Positions 2,230 through 51,053 of a DNA stretch of 64,000 nt are shown here, one piece after another; position 1 is the first letter of the stretch, and every line of letters begins with the position of its first letter. The translations under genes were made by a program, and so were the position numbers. Below the pieces are notes generated by a model. That model did not search any database. It saw only the letters and a program-made list of their open reading frames with translations, and was not told where the DNA came from. Where the stretch lies: contig NZ_CP034873.1 of NCBI RefSeq assembly GCF_005081445.1, positions 434,001-498,000 of the forward strand, given 5' to 3'. The DNA comes from Buchnera aphidicola (Hyadaphis tataricae). GTDB taxonomy: Bacteria > Pseudomonadota > Gammaproteobacteria > Enterobacterales > Enterobacteriaceae.

Positions 2230-4869
2230 ATGCATAAAAAAACCAATAAAATACGTCAAGATTTTCTAACATTTTTTAAAGAAAAAAACCATGTTATTCT
2301 TCCAAGTAGTTCTTTAATACCATATAACGATTCTACTTTATTATTTACTAACGCTGGTATGAATCAATTTAAAGAAATTTTTTTAGGTCAAAAAAATACA
2401 CATCATCTTCGTGTTGCTACAGTTCAACGTTGTTTAAGAACTGGAGGAAAACATAATGATTTAGATAATGTAGGATATACTTCAAAACATCACACATTTT
2501 TTGAAATGCTTGGAAATTTTAGTTTCGGTGATTATTTTAAAAAAGAAGCAATAGAATATGCTTGGGAACTATTAACATCAGAAAAATGGTTTAATATACC
2601 GAAAAAAAAATTATGGATTTCAGTATATGAACAGGATTATGAGTCCTATGAAATATGGAAAAATATCATTCACATTAATCCTGAGAAAATTATAAAAATA
2701 GGTGATAAAGAAGGAATAAAATATAATTCAGATAATTTTTGGAAAATGGGAGACACTGGACCATGTGGACCATCTACAGAAATATTTTATGATTATGGAA
2801 ATGAAAACGAAAATACTCAATCAAGTTTTATCGAGAACAAAAACAATCGTTTTGTTGAAATTTGGAATATTGTTTTTATATCATTCAATCGTATTTCAAA
2901 AAACAAAATTATTTCTCTTCCAAAAATATCTGTAGATACAGGTATGGGATTAGAAAGAATTGCTGCTGTTTTACAAAATGTTTCTTCTAATTATGATATC
3001 GATATCTTTCAAGTATTAATCAAACATATATCTACCTTTAGTACGACAAAATGTTCAAATCATATATCTTTAAAAATTATAGCAGATCATATTAGATCAG
3101 CTGTATATATGATTGCAGATGATGTTTTACCATCTAACGAGCATAGAGGTTATGTTTTAAGAAGAATCATCAGAAGAGCTTTAAGACATGGACAAAAAAT
3201 CGGAATTAAAGAACATTTTTTCTATAAATTAGTATCCACTGTAATCAATACTATGCATGCAGATTTTCACATCTTACAAAACAAAAAGGAAACAATACAA
3301 AGTATATTAAAAAAAGAAGAAACACAATTCTCTGCAACATTAAAAAAAGGTTTAAAAATATTAGATTATGAAATAAAGAATACAAAAAATGATACACTTT
3401 CAGGAAAAACGATATTTTATCTTTATGATACCTTTGGATTTCCAGTTGATTTAACCAATGATATATGTCGCGAAAAAAACATCAAAATAGATTATCAAGG
3501 TTATAAAATATTAAAAGAAAAACAAAAAAAAAGATCTTTTGAAAACAATCAATTTTGTAAAAATTATAATAACGATATTGTTATAAACGATACTTGCTTG
3601 TTCAAAGGTTACAAAGAACACAAAACTAAATCTTTAGTAAAAAACATTGCCGCAAAAAACAAATTTGTTCAAGAAATTTCCAATAACGATCTGAGTATTA
3701 TTTTTCTTAACATAACACCATTTTATAGTGAATCGGGTGGACAAATAAGCGATATAGGTAAATTATATAATAAAAACGCATGTTTTATAGTAGAAAATAC
3801 GAAAAAATATGGCAATACAATAGGACACATTGGTAGATTAATTTTTGGGAAAATTAAAATTTACGATCGTTTATATAGTCAAATAGATCGAGAACATAGA
3901 AATGATATTCAATTAAACCATTCATCTACACATTTATTGCATGCAACATTAAGAGAAATTTTCGGATCTAATGTATATCAAAAGGGTTCTTTAGTCACAA
4001 ATAAATATTTAAGATTTGATTTTTCTTACTCTAATTCTATAACAATAGCTCAAATTCAAAATATTGAAAACATTGTGAATGCAAAAATTAGAGATAATAT
4101 TCCCATTGAAATTAAAGAATTAAGTTTGGAAGAAGCAAAAAAAAAGAAAGCAATGTGTTTATTTGATAACGCATACAGCTCAATTGTACGTGTTGTATTT
4201 ATAAAAGATTTTTCTATAGAACTTTGCGGAGGAACGCATACAAAAAGAACTGGAGACATTGGTTTTTTTAAAATTATTTCACGATCTAGCGTATCATCTG
4301 GTATTAAAAGAATTGAGGCAATAACCGGACAAACAGCAATAAATTTTTTACATAAAAAAGAAAATGATATACACGATATATCAACACTATTAAATTGCGA
4401 TATTGATTATATAAAAGAAAAAATTACTAAATTAATAAATACAACAAAACATTTAGAAACAAAAATAACGACGCTACAACATCAAGAGAACATATCTCAA
4501 ATAAAAAATATGATGAAAAGAGTAATAGACATAAAAGGAGTAAAATTTTTATCAAAAATATTTTATAATTATGAACATAAATCCATGAGAATTATGTTAG
4601 ATCAATTAAAAAAATTACTTAAAGTAACAATAGTGATTTTAATAAATATTATTAATCATCGTTTTACTATTATTGTTGGCGTTACAAAAAATTTAATTAA
4701 CGATATCAATGCTAAAAAAATTATAGATAAATTCATGGAAAAAACTCTAGGAAAAGGAGGAGGTAAAAAAGATATTGCTGAAGGAGGAGGTAAAAATACA
4801 AAAAAAATACCTGAGATATTAAATGATATTGAAATATGGATTGGTGATCAATTAAAAAATAGTTGTTAG
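2230..4869 (+). CDS. alaS: Alanyl-tRNA synthetase
   Basis: This 879 aa protein (E. coli 876) charges tRNA-Ala. The class II catalytic core is N-terminal (FTNAGMNQFK near residue 40, then GDTGPCGPSTEI). The editing domain carries the zinc-binding HSSTH near residue 564 and CGGTH with its cysteine at residue 666, the same number as in E. coli. The C-terminal DHHA1-type domain ends with the glycine-rich LGKGGGKKDIAEGGGK. All parts are present. No clear Shine-Dalgarno sequence precedes the ATG. The alaS-csrA order is the same as in E. coli. Confidence 0.97.
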   Translation: MHKKTNKIRQDFLTFFKEKNHVILPSSSLIPYNDSTLLFTNAGMNQFKEIFLGQKNTHHLRVATVQRCLRTGGKHNDLDNVGYTSKHHTFFEMLGNFSFGDYFKKEAIEYAWELLTSEKWFNIPKKKLWISVYEQDYESYEIWKNIIHINPEKIIKIGDKEGIKYNSDNFWKMGDTGPCGPSTEIFYDYGNENENTQSSFIENKNNRFVEIWNIVFISFNRISKNKIISLPKISVDTGMGLERIAAVLQNVSSNYDIDIFQVLIKHISTFSTTKCSNHISLKIIADHIRSAVYMIADDVLPSNEHRGYVLRRIIRRALRHGQKIGIKEHFFYKLVSTVINTMHADFHILQNKKETIQSILKKEETQFSATLKKGLKILDYEIKNTKNDTLSGKTIFYLYDTFGFPVDLTNDICREKNIKIDYQGYKILKEKQKKRSFENNQFCKNYNNDIVINDTCLFKGYKEHKTKSLVKNIAAKNKFVQEISNNDLSIIFLNITPFYSESGGQISDIGKLYNKNACFIVENTKKYGNTIGHIGRLIFGKIKIYDRLYSQIDREHRNDIQLNHSSTHLLHATLREIFGSNVYQKGSLVTNKYLRFDFSYSNSITIAQIQNIENIVNAKIRDNIPIEIKELSLEEAKKKKAMCLFDNAYSSIVRVVFIKDFSIELCGGTHTKRTGDIGFFKIISRSSVSSGIKRIEAITGQTAINFLHKKENDIHDISTLLNCDIDYIKEKITKLINTTKHLETKITTLQHQENISQIKNMMKRVIDIKGVKFLSKIFYNYEHKSMRIMLDQLKKLLKVTIVILINIINHRFTIIVGVTKNLINDINAKKIIDKFMEKTLGKGGGKKDIAEGGGKNTKKIPEILNDIEIWIGDQLKNSC

Positions 4870-11889: not shown

Positions 11890-13581
11890 ATGAATACTAA
11901 AATAAAAAAATATCAAAATAACTTTATTGCTCAAATTATCAATAAAGATTTTAATCAAAATAAACATTTATCTTTTCATACTCGTTTTCCACCTGAGCCA
12001 AACGGTTATCTTCATATTGGTCATGCTAAGTCAATATGTTTAAATTTTGAATTATCAAAATTATATCAAGGTAAATGCAATTTGAGATTCGATGACACAA
12101 ACCCATTAAAAGAAAATGTGCAATATATTCAGGCTATTCAAGACGATATTCATTGGTTAGGTTATAAATATGATAATATTTGTTACACTTCTGAGTATTT
12201 TTCACAATTATATCAATATGCAAAAGAACTTATCAAAAAAGGTCTTGCTTATGTAGATCACTTAACAAAAGAAGAAATACGTGAATATAGAGGTAGTTTA
12301 ACGAAACCTGGAAAAAACAGCCCCTATAGAAATAGAACCATAGAAGAAAATATAACCTTATTTAAAAAAATGAAAAAGGGTGAATTTTCTGAAGGAGAAG
12401 TCTGTTTACGAGCAAAAATTGATATGAAATCTGCTTCTGTTATTATGCGAGATCCAGTTATATATAGAATTATTTTTGCTGAACATCATCAAACTAAAAA
12501 TAAATGGTGTATATACCCTATGTATGATTTCGCTCATTGTATATCGGATGCAATTGAAGAAATTACTCATTCATTATGTACATTAGAGTTTCAAGAAAAC
12601 AAGTTACTATATAACTGGATTTTGAAAAATATCAATATAAAAACGCATCCTAAACAATATGAATTTTCGAGATTAAATTTAGAATTTTGTATTTTATCTA
12701 AAAGAAAACTATCAATATTAATTAAAAAAAACATTATAACAGGATGGGATGATCCCCGTATACCAACAATATCTGGTTTGAGAAGAAAAGGTTATACACC
12801 TGATGCTATTAAAAAATTTTGTAAAAAAATAGGCGTTACCAAACAAAATCATTTAATAGAATTTTCAATGCTAGAACATTGCATCCGAAAAGAACTTAAT
12901 AAAACAGCTGTTCGTACAATGGCTGTACTAGAGCCAATAAAAGTATTTTTATATAATTTAGATCATGATCATAAGGAAATATTTGTAGTCCCTAATCATC
13001 CTAATAATCCAGACTTAGGAAGTCATGAAATTGTTTTTACTAATATAATATATATTGATCGAAATGATTTTAAAGAGCAGCATAACAAAAAATATAAACG
13101 ATTAACATTAGGAAAAGAAGTACGTTTAAGGCATGCTTATGTAATCAATGCAGAAAAAATAGAAAAAGATAGAGAAGGTAATATTACAAAAATAATATGT
13201 TATTGTGATCTCAATACTTTAGGAAAAAAAACAAAAAATAACACCAACCCTTCGGTGATCCACTGGATTTCAGAAAAAAATGCATTTCCAGCAGAATTTA
13301 GATTATATGATCAGTTATTCAAAATTCAAAATCCAGAAAAAGAAGTAAATTTTTTATCATATATCAATTCAAAATCAAAAATTATAAAAAATGGTTTTAT
13401 TGAAAAGAAGATTGGGCAAAATATTCAAGAAACAATCGAACGAAAAGAAAAGCGAATATTTTTTCAATTTGAAAGAATTGGTTATTTTTGTATAGATGAG
13501 ATAGAGTCTAAAAAAAGACAATTAATCTTTAATCGTACTGTTAGCTTACGAGAACTATGGAATCCTAAAAATATGAATTGA
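11890..13581 (+). CDS. glnS: Glutaminyl-tRNA synthetase
   Basis: GlnS charges tRNA-Gln, whose gene lies just upstream on the other strand. The 563 aa protein (E. coli 554) is class [19 protein letters not shown] with HIGH near residue 41, and [10 protein letters not shown], the KMSKS equivalent, near residue 267. [18 protein letters not shown] and the C-terminal beta-barrel anticodon domain ([11 protein letters not shown]) follow. Bacterial GluRS lacks the last domain, which separates the two. No frame problem is seen. Confidence 0.97.
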
Positions 13582-29468: not shown

Positions 29469-30358
29469 AATATTAAAAAATCCAAGTTTTGTTATATTAA
29501 AGAATTTATTTTTTTAAAAAACATAATTTTAAAAAATGTAAATCTTTTTATAAAAAATACAAAATATATAATATCAAATAAAACATTATTATATTTTTCA
29601 AAATTAAGATTGCTCAGTGCGTAATGTTATTAATTTTTTTTTTCATAATAACTTCAGGGCAACTAGACAATGATCATACCTATCAAAGAACAACTTTTTT
29701 GAAAAACATGTTTTATTTTTTATGCAATGCGACACAATCATTTAACTTCTATTGCAGTAGAGTGAAAAATTTTCACGCTATCTTAGTTGCAGATGATTTT
29801 TTTTAATCTAATAAAATAGATGAATAATAAAATTATAAATGCAAGATTATTCAGTTAATATCGAAAGAATGAATATGTTAAAAATGATCTTTTTATTGAG
29901 TGCTTCTAAAAAATTTATCAATCTAAACTAAACTATTAGATGTAAAATGATAAAGAATTATTAAACATGTTAGTTATGTTTATCATAAAAGTTAAGATTC
30001 TATTATTTAAATCATCTGAAAGACGCATTCTCGTAAAGATCTTATCAAAAGACTGATTACTACCTATTCATCAGGAACAAAATGAACAAAACAACCCAAA
30101 ATTGAAAATAAGAGTAATCAAATACATATAAGTGCTTTTAGCCATTACAATAGGTATTGTTGTGACTAAAATTTTTCCGTTTACATAATACAATGGAATT
30201 TTTATGCATGGATAGTTCAAAGATAGCTCAATAATTGGATCATAACTGCATAATAAAAACACACCGTTGTTCGTTTATCATAAAAAATATACAGTTTAAA
30301 AAAATATAAAACATTCAGATTAATGTGATGATACATCTTGTTTGCGCTAATTTTCTGC

Positions 30359-30387
30359 AGTGTTTTTTAAATATTTTAAAAAGCACT
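30359..30387 (+). repeat. Hairpin in the gene desert
   Basis: AGTGTTTTTTAAA pairs with TTTAAAAAGCACT across 13 positions (one G-U pair) with a 3-base loop. It overlaps the first base or two before a TATAAT at 30388-30393 and lies 52 bases before the terminator-like hairpin. Confidence 0.6.
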
Positions 30388-30439
30388 TATAATGTTAAAA
30401 ATCTCTGTATAATTTATTTCCTAAAGACAAGACTTGAGT

Positions 30440-30463
30440 ACAGCATTAACCATGCTGTTTTTA
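30440..30463 (+). terminator. Orphan terminator-like hairpin in the gene desert
   Basis: ACAGCAT-TAACC-ATGCTGT is a perfect 7 bp stem with a 5-base loop followed by TTTTTAT, the form of an intrinsic terminator on the plus strand. No gene precedes it. It may end a small RNA or be the remains of a lost gene. Confidence 0.6.
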
Positions 30464-31235
30464 TATGCTTTAAATAAGAGAAAAAATATAACGTACTATA
30501 TTCTTGAAGAACTTGCACTATATTATAGTATTTAACAATTAAGTGAACGTACACCTTATGCATTTGAATATAATCGCTCTAATAATTTTATTATATTTTA
30601 TTTTTAATGATTTAATGATTAATACTGTTGTATGTTCTTATTTAATATTTTTAATATACTCTTTTAAATTATTTTTAATAGATTTTAACTTATAAAATTT
30701 AATATTATAAAATTAGAAAATAACATTACCATCTCAAATAGATTTAGAAGGGTTTAAAGCAATTTCTGTATTTAATAAAAATTACAATTTTTTAACACAA
30801 TCAATTGATAAATGTATGTTATTCATATTTTTAATTTTTATTTTTTAATATTAAATAGAAATTAGTTAAAAATTTAATCTAGCACAAATGCGAACAAAAT
30901 CATGAGACAATACAGCACATACAGCACATTGAGTGCGAATTTTTTTCTAAATTTTTTCATTTGATTAATAATAATTTACTTTGTTATAACATTATTAAAA
31001 CAATCTTACATTTTTACACCGTTTTCTAAATAAAAAAAAATTTTTAATAAATTATTCAAACAACGATACAATGCTCTATTTCTTAGTATAGAAAGTACTT
31101 GTGTATTCAACACAATGAACAAAGTATTTTGAAATATTTCTAAACTGCTTTAAACATGAACGTCTATAAAATACTATGTTCTATACAATTAATTTTTAAT
31201 TCTTGAATATAAGAGAATTTTTTTATATAAATAAA

Positions 31236-31295
31236 TTTAGTATATTGAACAAAAAACCATCAAAAAATATTAAATATTGTTTTTTCTATACTAAA
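31236..31295. repeat. Inverted repeat in the gene desert
   Basis: TTTAGTATA (31236-31244) and TATACTAAA (31287-31295) form a perfect 9 bp inverted repeat around 42 bases, which themselves contain A6 and T6 runs able to extend the pairing partly. Confidence 0.5.
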
Positions 31296-32029
31296 TGCAT
31301 TTAGATTATGAGTTCGAAATTGCAATCTGATTGTGTTATGTGCGATCTATAAATAAAATTATAATTATGAATTTTGTTCAATGTTCTTTTATTCTTAATT
31401 AAAAGAAAATTAAAAAATATAACTTATAAATTCTTCAGGAACAAAAATTTCTTAAGGATTTTTTGTTCAAATGCTACGAGTACAATTTTAGATTGATAAA
31501 TTTTAAAAGAGCAAAACTTGAAGAAATATCCAAACAAGCATGTCTAAATAAATGTTGTTTTTGCCAAATATAAACTATGAAATTATTCGAACCTAATGTA
31601 TATCAGGTGTAATCTGTAATAGCTCCGAGAATGATTACGAAAACTATTTTCAAGATATGAATTTTTTTATAATGTCTCTTGATTGCAAGCGGCAATAGAT
31701 TTATCTCACTTTGATGAGTTTTAACGGATAATGATTCTATATATGATATAAAATCCCAGACATTGATATAATTTTATTATTAGAATATCCTGTATTTGTA
31801 AAAAGTGATTTTCAATACTGTAGATACTTATTCAGCTTTGCAATAAAAAGGTTTTCAAAAATTGCTCATGTTATACACAAGTAAAATATCAAGATATTTC
31901 AATTTTAAAGATCGATGCTATTTTAGCATGAGGATATTATTATCAAAGTACATCGTAGTATTTTCATAATATATAATATGCATTTAATATAAATAAAATA
32001 GCAACGCAAAACATCTACAGTACAATGCG

Positions 32030-32132: not shown

Positions 32133-32761
32133 ATGAAAAATATATTAATTGTAATATTTAATCTTTTTCTATGTTGTAATACTGTAGCGTATGAATTTAC
32201 ACAGCAAAAAGAATATACTATAAAAAAAAAAAAATTAGAAATGCACCAAACGTAATGGAGTTTTTTTCTTTTTTTTGTCCGTATTGTTATGAACTTGAAA
32301 AAATACATAATATAGAAAAATTAACAAAAAAAAACATAAAAAATATAACAATTCAAACATATCACGTGAACTTTTTAGGAGGAGAATTTAGTAATGTTTT
32401 AACAAAATCTTGGATAATCGCTGAACAAATGGGAATTGAAGATAAAATTATGTTGCCAATTTTTAAAGGCATCCAAGAAACTCATACAATTCACAACATC
32501 GATAATATTAAAAAAATTTTTAAAAAAAAAGCTTCAATCGACGAAAACATATTTGATAAATTTTGGAACAGTATAACCATTGAATTTATTGTGCAAAAAA
32601 AAAATAAAGAAATTATACAATCTCAAATAGATTATATTCCATTAATGTTAATTAATGGAAAATATATGGTTAATTATTCTACTATAGAAAATGTTTTCAA
32701 AAATAATTTTCCTAAGAAATATATCCAATTAATTCAATTTTTAATAAAAAAAAATGATTAA
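32133..32761 (+). CDS. dsbA: Thiol:disulfide oxidoreductase DsbA, frameshifted at an A13 tract
   Basis: DsbA oxidises cysteines of proteins in the periplasm. ATG 32133 opens a signal-like stretch (MKNILIVIFNLFLCCNTVAY) leading into EFTQQKEYTIKKKK, and that frame stops at 32253-32255. The rest is in the preceding frame: RNAPNVMEFFSFFCPYCYE, then YHVNFLGGEF and MLINGKYMV, matching E. coli DsbA. The frames meet at thirteen As (32222-32234). Adding one A gives 209 aa (E. coli 208) and makes the spacing from QYT to EFFSFF identical to E. coli. The active site is CPYC instead of CPHC. A second A10 run in the gene stays in frame. Confidence 0.88.
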
Positions 32762-42285: not shown

Positions 42286-43148
42286 ATGTATATGATGTTT
42301 CCGAATTTTGATCCTATAATTATTTCTATTGGACCTGTATCTGCACATTGGTATGGTTTGATGTATTTTATAAGTTTTACTTTTGCTATGTGGTACGGAA
42401 AAAAAAAACATTAAAACAACAATATTCATGGCTGAAAAATAAAATCGAAACATTAATATATTCTATTTTTTTAAGCGCTTGTATTGGAGGTAGAATAGGG
42501 TGCGTGTTGTTTTATAATTTTTCATATTTTTCTCAAAATATATTACATATATTTTATATATGGGAAGGAGGCATGTCATTTCATGGAGGTTTAATAGGTG
42601 CCACAATTGCAATATCATATTTTTCTTTGAAATATCAAAAACCAATCTTAGAAATATCTGATTTTATCATTCCATTAGTACCTTTTGGTTTAGGAGCAGG
42701 AAGAATAGGAAATTTTATTAATGGTGAATTATGGGGTAGGGTATCAACAGATTACTCATATGGAATGATTTTTCCTAACGCCAAACAACAAGATATAGAA
42801 ATAGCAAGTCATCACCCAAAATTGCAAACTTTTTTAGATCAATATGGTGGTATACCTCGTCATCCTTCACAATTATATGAACTTTTTTTAGAAGGTCTCG
42901 TGTTATTTTTAATAATCTACTTTTTTACAAAAAAAAATAGACCAATCGGCAGTGTTAGCGGTATATTTCTAATATTTTATGGTTTATTTAGATTTATAGT
43001 GGAATTTTTTCGAGAACCAGATCCTTCAGTGGGATTATTAAAAAACATTATAAGCATGGGTCAATTACTATCAATACCAATGATTATTATCGGATTAATG
43101 ATTATGTGTAGTATTTTTTATCAAAAAGACGGGTCATCTAAAAAATGA
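42286..43148 (+). CDS. lgt: Prolipoprotein diacylglyceryl transferase, frameshifted at an A10 tract
   Basis: Lgt adds diacylglycerol to the lipobox cysteine of prolipoproteins in the inner membrane. ATG 42286 opens [18 protein letters not shown] and [18 protein letters not shown], matching the Lgt N-terminus, but this frame stops at 42412. From the A10 run (42399-42408) the preceding frame continues with [43 protein letters not shown] and the signature [16 protein letters not shown]. One added A gives 287 aa (E. coli 291) and the same spacing between FAMW and GRIG as E. coli. Its stop overlaps the thyA start (ATGA). Confidence 0.9.
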
Positions 43149-50420: not shown

Positions 50421-51053
50421 ATGAACAAATTATACGCGATATTTGGTGGCAATTTTGATCCAATTCATTACGGCCACATTCTTTCTGTTAATAATCTAGC
50501 TAAAGAAATATCTATAAATCATATAATATTTTTACCAAATAACAACCCTCCACATAGAGAGAAAACAAAAACATCTATTATAGATAGAATTAATATGATT
50601 AAAATTGCTATTAAAAAAAATACTTTATTTAAAATCAGTTATTTAGAAACAAAAAAAAAACAAATTTTTTATACTATAAATACTTTAAAAAAAATCAGAA
50701 AAAACATTGGTTTTTCAGCATCCTTGTGTTTAATAATAGGACAAGATCACCTTCAACATTTACATCTCTGGAAAGATTGGCAAGAAATACTGCGATTTTC
50801 TCATCTATTAATTCTTCCTAGAATTTGCAAAAATATAAATTATACATTAGAAAAATGGATACAATCCCACATTGTTAGTAATTACAGTTTACTACATGAA
50901 CAATCGTCCGGTTTAATTTATTTTTCAAATATAAATCGAATTAATATTTCTTCCACTATCATTAGATATAATTATTTGAACGGTATCAGTTGTAATCAAT
51001 TGTTACCAGATTCTGTAAATCAATATATCTTATCAAAAAAATTATATTTTTAA
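50421..51053 (+). CDS. nadD: Nicotinate-mononucleotide adenylyltransferase
   Basis: NadD adenylates nicotinate mononucleotide in NAD synthesis. The 210 aa protein (E. coli 213) has the nucleotidyltransferase motif GGNFDPIHYGH at 9-19, IGQDHLQHLHLWKDWQEI near residue 108 and ISSTIIRYNY near 180. An A10 run near 50651-50660 stays in frame. Confidence 0.95.
   Translation: MNKLYAIFGGNFDPIHYGHILSVNNLAKEISINHIIFLPNNNPPHREKTKTSIIDRINMIKIAIKKNTLFKISYLETKKKQIFYTINTLKKIRKNIGFSASLCLIIGQDHLQHLHLWKDWQEILRFSHLLILPRICKNINYTLEKWIQSHIVSNYSLLHEQSSGLIYFSNINRINISSTIIRYNYLNGISCNQLLPDSVNQYILSKKLYF

Follow-up and report, generated by a model that had tools for sequence, protein, structure and literature searches.

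The dsbA locus

The window, i.e., the whole 64-kb stretch of DNA that was analysed, belongs to the genome of the Buchnera symbiont of the aphid Hyadaphis tataricae (CP034873.1; G000). It contains a dsbA gene that is written in two frames, one base out of step with each other, which join at a run of thirteen As (Table 1). A sequence-only reading of this DNA had claimed that a signal-peptide frame beginning at ATG 32133 and a DsbA body in the preceding frame meet at this run, that one added A gives 209 residues, and that the rest of the gene is free of stops, unlike an old pseudogene. The sequence confirms all of this: frame 0 runs from the ATG to a TAA and specifies a product of 40 amino acids, the −1 frame encodes the DsbA body and is open to its end without an internal stop, and the 629 bases of the span, plus one, make 209 codons and a stop. 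The same reading had held that the residue spacing from QYT to EFFSFF is that of E. coli. The spacing stands: the tyrosine motif and EFFSF are 13 residues apart in 31 of 31 outgroup loci (from Pantoea, Erwinia, Mixta and others, a set from which Buchnera is absent), and one added base gives 13 here too; but the residues ahead of the spacer are EYT, not QYT. Within the window there are 27 runs of nine As, eight of ten and a single run of thirteen, which is the only one of at least 11.

Table 1. Positions of the features discussed, in window coordinates
Feature	Position	Strand	Remarks
Decayed mutS pseudogene, adjoining dsbA	29747..31962	-	three pieces, 31-38% identity, 46 stops
dsbA start codon, signal peptide and first residues, frame 0	32133..32221	+	89 nt from ATG to run, equal in 4/4 clade genomes
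A13 run, junction of the two frames	32222..32234	+	A10 at the homologous place in three sister genomes
Frame-0 tail ending at TAA 32253-32255	32235..32255	+	end of the unslipped 40-aa product
DsbA body, −1 frame	32235..32761	+	CPYC, cis-Pro loop, no internal stop, dN/dS about 0.10 in clade
ATG overlapping the frame-0 stop (TAATG)	32255..32257	+	possible reinitiation start
lgt	42298..43145	+	out of frame at A10, about 42354-42423; single frame in six other genomes
nadD	50421..51053		intact in window; broken in L138-L143, L145-L153

The identity of the body is supported by comparison with a family model and with structures. The Pfam family PF01323 matches it with 40 bits, above the cut-off, and this is the only match of the family found in the genome. 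Structures of E. coli DsbA match it with E values of about 1e-36, residue 1 of the body aligning with residue 23 of the chain. The best model is NF008198 (NCBIfam DsbA), but the body alone reaches 148.8 bits in it, below a cut-off of 279 that is set for the whole protein. The body is encoded in all 36 Buchnera genomes compared, each of which has the active-site motif CPYC and the cis-proline loop (V/I-P), including the four in which the gene is broken.

A search with PF02600 for DsbB, the usual re-oxidising partner, matched none of the 36 genomes of the genus and 6 of 14 control genomes; thus, DsbA is an oxidase that has been kept throughout the genus without a detectable DsbB. As this holds for lineages with intact and with broken dsbA alike, it limits what can be claimed about the pathway and not the identity of dsbA. 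A plausible client of DsbA is FlgI, which in E. coli requires DsbA: FlgI is present in 36 of the 36 genomes, and two cysteines are conserved in the five sequences examined (those of the four clade members and of the Myzus symbiont).

The break is shared by one clade

The junction was compared across the same 36 Buchnera genomes, the window's own included. The hosts were taken as Lipaphis pseudobrassicae (G003), Brevicoryne brassicae (G006) and Diuraphis noxia (G027; CP013259) and, among the others, Myzus persicae (G026), A. pisum (G029), Uroleucon ambrosiae (G016) and Schizaphis graminum (G001). A gene was counted as intact if it had an in-frame start codon at least 30 residues ahead of the active-site motif. 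By this rule, dsbA is intact in 32 genomes and broken in four, namely those from Hyadaphis, Lipaphis, Brevicoryne and Diuraphis. (In G023, which is among the intact, a TAA lies inside the match; this is the gene's own stop codon, at the end of an open frame of 209 codons.) All four broken genes need the same step at the homologous run, which is A13 in Hyadaphis and A10 in the other three. The three A10 genomes share the next bases, GTATA, and the A13 of Hyadaphis is this A10+GTATA sequence with two substitutions and no change of length, so that the residue count is the same and the phase is kept. Runs of this kind also occur at the homologous place in intact relatives (A12 in G028, A10 in G031 and G023). 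Thus, the length of the run does not by itself break dsbA.

A maximum-likelihood tree was made from nine neighbouring proteins, dsbA excluded, with 35 or 36 genomes for each and the best aligned piece per gene. In this tree the four broken genomes form one clade (UFBoot 100); the grouping within the clade is weak, with a bootstrap of 65 for Diuraphis plus Hyadaphis. Patristic distances within the clade are 0.26–0.56, to be compared with 0.46 between the symbionts of A. pisum and U. ambrosiae and 0.64 between those of A. pisum and S. graminum. That all four clade members have the same break, and that the 32 other genomes lack it, is beyond chance. Since the four form one clade, the simplest history is a single ancestral loss of one A, and we infer a single origin of the break from the tree and the shared phase. 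The counterweight is that Buchnera is known to break the same gene repeatedly, murF being an example (PMC3164680).

Selection on the broken gene

The part of the gene that follows the break was analysed with a codon model in 14 of the 36 genomes, by a self-written program whose optimiser was limited to 40–60 iterations. On the six branches within the clade dN/dS is 0.098, and elsewhere it is 0.120, values that are not different (2dlnL 0.69), and neutrality in the clade is rejected (2dlnL 146.3). Pairwise estimates (NG86) for the six pairs of clade members give dN of 0.11–0.20 and dS of 0.45–0.89. A simple neutral simulation (chosen base frequencies, no transition bias) taken to 0.2 substitutions per site left on average 7.5 stops in 170 codons, and none of its 400 runs stayed free of stops. 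In the part upstream of the run, which is open in all four clade genomes and is 89 nt long in each, no excess of third-position changes was found, this piece being too short and too loosely constrained. For the signal-peptide part, the sign of selection is thus that the frame is unbroken and the length constant.

Purifying selection alone cannot date the break, because dN/dS would be the same if an A11 had been inherited and had lost one A late, four times over; it is the clade in the tree that lets continuing selection be placed after the break. A true null would be at odds with a dN/dS of 0.10. The break being common to the clade and the protein conserved, DsbA is probably still made: the earlier suggestion that dsbA may be expressed is well supported, as far as genomes can tell, by the same-phase break throughout the clade together with ordinary purifying selection.

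The look of an abandoned gene can be seen next door. The seemingly empty stretch ahead of dsbA is a decayed mutS, which was named by NCBIfam via an intact ortholog in G022 and serves as a local control. In the Diuraphis symbiont mutS lies in four partly overlapping pieces with 13, 3, 1 and 1 stops, in the Lipaphis symbiont it has one frame break and no stops, and in the Brevicoryne symbiont it is open. Without mismatch repair, runs would be expected to change length by mutation more often.

Other genes out of frame at A runs

The base rate of such breaks was surveyed in 49 clusters of open reading frames, over about 60–64 kb, in seven genomes (the four of the clade and three outgroups). Breaks at runs of A9–A13 make up 14 rows: dsbA (4), polA (2), lgt (1), ybeY (3) and nadD (4). 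Left out of this count were cysN (c17), broken at an A8 in G027; c43 in G003, where there is no long run; and five mutS rows. Among the broken genes surveyed, dsbA alone is broken in every clade genome and unbroken in each of the three outgroups. In 12 of the 14 rows one base more is needed, which is not taken as proof of anything, since the rows are not independent and a deletion bias in DNA has the same sign. Within the gene spans of the seven genomes, runs of T10–T13 on the coding strand are absent and runs of A10–A13 number 8 to 16.

The 5′-nuclease part of polA (for this fragment, the first family name is 5′-3′ exonuclease) is broken at the same A run in the symbionts of Brevicoryne (A11; L074, about 12185–12215) and Diuraphis (A10; L095, about 11932–11972); the phases differ, so these two breaks are probably independent. 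The gene ybeY is broken near residue 35 at an A10 in the sister genomes G003 (L106, about 4193–4297) and G006 (L108, about 4213–4308), and near residue 35 at an A13, in the other phase, in G034 (L116, about 4144–4256). In G018 (taken as the Buchnera of Pentalonia nigronervosa) 31 As lie directly upstream of the likely start of dsbA (L086, 10796–10826).

The gene nadD was followed through the whole genus. In 15 of the 36 genomes its frame breaks at one or the other of two A runs, near residue 80 in nine and near residue 135 in six, and there are no stops in either of the best aligned pieces (the longer matches carry on beyond the break in the wrong frame and do have stops); 20 genomes have it intact, and G018 has a decayed copy. 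Eight of the nine genomes with a break near residue 80 belong to the clade of the tree that holds Aphis, the ninth being G004, and both phases occur at this run. For the C-terminal segment (codon model, 17 genomes), dN/dS is 0.15 on the eight broken tips of the Aphis group versus 0.10 elsewhere (2dlnL 2.05), and neutrality is rejected (2dlnL 71.2). Thus, a frame break at an A run and continuing selection coincide more than once in Buchnera. The literature search found no publication on Buchnera nadD.

How the frame may be restored

We consider it probable that dsbA carries an ancestral frameshift of the clade, tolerated since slippage by RNA polymerase would restore the frame in some of the transcripts. 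On this account, the Buchnera ancestral to those of Hyadaphis, Lipaphis, Brevicoryne and Diuraphis would have lost one A from the poly(A) run, and dsbA would have stayed out of frame ever since in the four lineages examined. Translated without slippage, the genomic frame would give a signal-peptide stub of 40 residues. RNA polymerase would slip on the A10 or A13 and add one A in a fraction of the transcripts, the corrected transcripts would give a secreted, full-length and active DsbA, and there would be enough of them for the entire protein to stay under purifying selection. That the polymerase slips, how efficiently it does so and that DsbA is made are our inference; slippage is the likeliest reading of how the gene is rescued.

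What is known of related systems lends this account weight on several points. In frameshifted genes of aphid and ant endosymbionts, 12–50% of transcripts are reported to be corrected (PMC5009743). Of 157 insertions recorded in Buchnera RNA, 151 fall in homopolymer runs, and their frequency climbs exponentially with the length of the run, up to 11 nt (PMC5574713). The A10 in Buchnera mur genes has been named as a slippage site (PMC6260861). Other reports count against it: poly(T) tracts provoke slippage by the polymerase of E. coli more easily than poly(A) tracts do, and deletions prevailed in one in-vitro study of an A11 (PMC6260861), which tells against slippage as a rescue here, as a one-base deletion on the A run does not restore the dsbA frame; and the insertion rate across the Buchnera transcriptome is only 1.3e-5 per nucleotide (PMC5574713).

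Those reports on the E. coli polymerase, which make it less prone to slip on poly(A) and, in one study, prone in the opposite direction (PMC6260861), are also an argument that the correction occurs on the ribosome, by −1 frameshifting on a run of the A AAA AAA type, with the mRNA copied faithfully. The step needed is indeed −1, frame 0 reads slippery heptamers within the run in each genome of the clade, and a run this long might slip without stimulators. The heptamer is, however, the only one of the usual elements of programmed −1 frameshifting that was found: a simple pattern applied to the upstream 30 nt detected no Shine-Dalgarno-like stimulator in any clade genome, and the downstream structure is no better than that of shuffled sequence (z 0.32 to 0.78 in the four). 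As such runs are, moreover, the reported sites of RNA-polymerase slippage in Buchnera (PMC5009743, PMC6260861), we regard ribosomal frameshifting as unlikely. Termination at the TAA followed by a restart at ATG 32255 would give the DsbA body without a signal peptide. The TAATG overlap in the window would allow it, and the product would also lack the first strand; we hold it to be very improbable. As a general explanation reinitiation was rejected, the body frames of G003 and G006 having no methionine ahead of the active-site motif.

The remaining questions concern the break itself. Homopolymers are the usual site of sequencing and assembly errors, but an error here is most improbable, because the same break is present in three other assemblies, one of which (Diuraphis noxia, CP013259) comes from a paper of its own (PMC10851558), and because the length of the run varies (A13, A10) and its phase does not. 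It is also conceivable that the ancestor had an intact A11 and that each lineage has lately lost one A, the genes being either young nulls or toggling within populations, a history that would be compatible with rescue by slippage. In favour of it, frameshifts at homopolymers arise often and convergently in Buchnera (PMC3164680), nadD is hit at two different runs (in both phases at one), and mutS is broken in every clade genome but that from Brevicoryne. Against recurrent breakage stand the uniform phase of the four breaks and the confinement of the break to the clade, the flanking bases shared by the three A10 genomes, from which the Hyadaphis run differs by substitutions and not by length, and the intact relatives that have A10 or A12 at this place (G023, G031, G028); four recent losses are accordingly an improbable history. 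A further reading accepts polymerase slippage and goes beyond it: the out-of-frame run might be the normal, selected means of setting the dose of DsbA in this clade. It would account for the difference between the A13 of Hyadaphis and the A10 of its sisters, which apparently arose by substitutions that hold the phase, as expected if the output of slippage were tuned, and for the lack of revertants among the four lineages, where one changed base in a mutable run would suffice. We regard selection for dose as rather doubtful.

Relation to known systems

Rescue by slippage in Buchnera and selected ancient frameshifts in Blochmannia are already known; dsbA is a new and unusually clear case. It has those features of the slippage class that genomes can show: a single homopolymer indel with open frames on either side, a run of the A10 class and continuing selection. 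The Buchnera mur genes (Tamas et al. 2008, as presented in PMC5009743, PMC6260861 and PMC3164680) likewise have a single-base break at a run of the A10 class in a gene that is otherwise intact, with RNA slippage as the rescue. In the mur genes, transcripts have been measured, whereas dsbA is known from genomes alone, but with a break throughout a clade and a test by codon model. The ancient frameshifts of Blochmannia (Wernegreen, Kauppinen and Degnan 2010, as presented in PMC3017870 and PMC4389277) resemble that of dsbA in being conserved between species in an undecayed gene; the symbiont is a different one, and in dsbA the break lies just after the signal peptide, with A13 in one genome versus A10 in its sisters at the same phase. 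For Buchnera of the Aphidinae, 8–18 homopolymeric frameshifts are tabled in each of six genomes, and slippage is suggested (Degnan et al. 2011, PMC3164680); none of the four hosts considered here is in that table, and the dsbA break looks inherited rather than convergent. The phylogenetic case for dsbA, built from genome comparison, is stronger than one genome can give.

In the literature searched, outside of which most subscription journals lie, no report of an out-of-frame Buchnera dsbA was found, and the string "dsb" is absent from the main text of PMC10851558 and of PMC11193766. In the annotation of the Diuraphis noxia symbiont, interrupted frames are labelled as pseudogenes and their coding sequences dropped (PMC10851558). 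The same paper points to Illumina and PacBio HiFi reads (PRJNA1019137) for several D. noxia biotypes and to RNA-seq reads that were mapped to this Buchnera.

Implications for Buchnera

An annotation of the pseudogene type would read dsbA as lost from these symbionts, and the comparison says the opposite. Despite its out-of-frame gene, DsbA would have been maintained while these symbionts diverged about as far as those of other aphid genera have from one another. With four species, two lengths of the run and intact outgroups to compare, dsbA is a clean test case for how long slippage in RNA can replace a correct DNA sequence. It is also a warning that single breaks at homopolymers should not be counted as gene loss, and nadD suggests that the habit reaches the synthesis of NAD.
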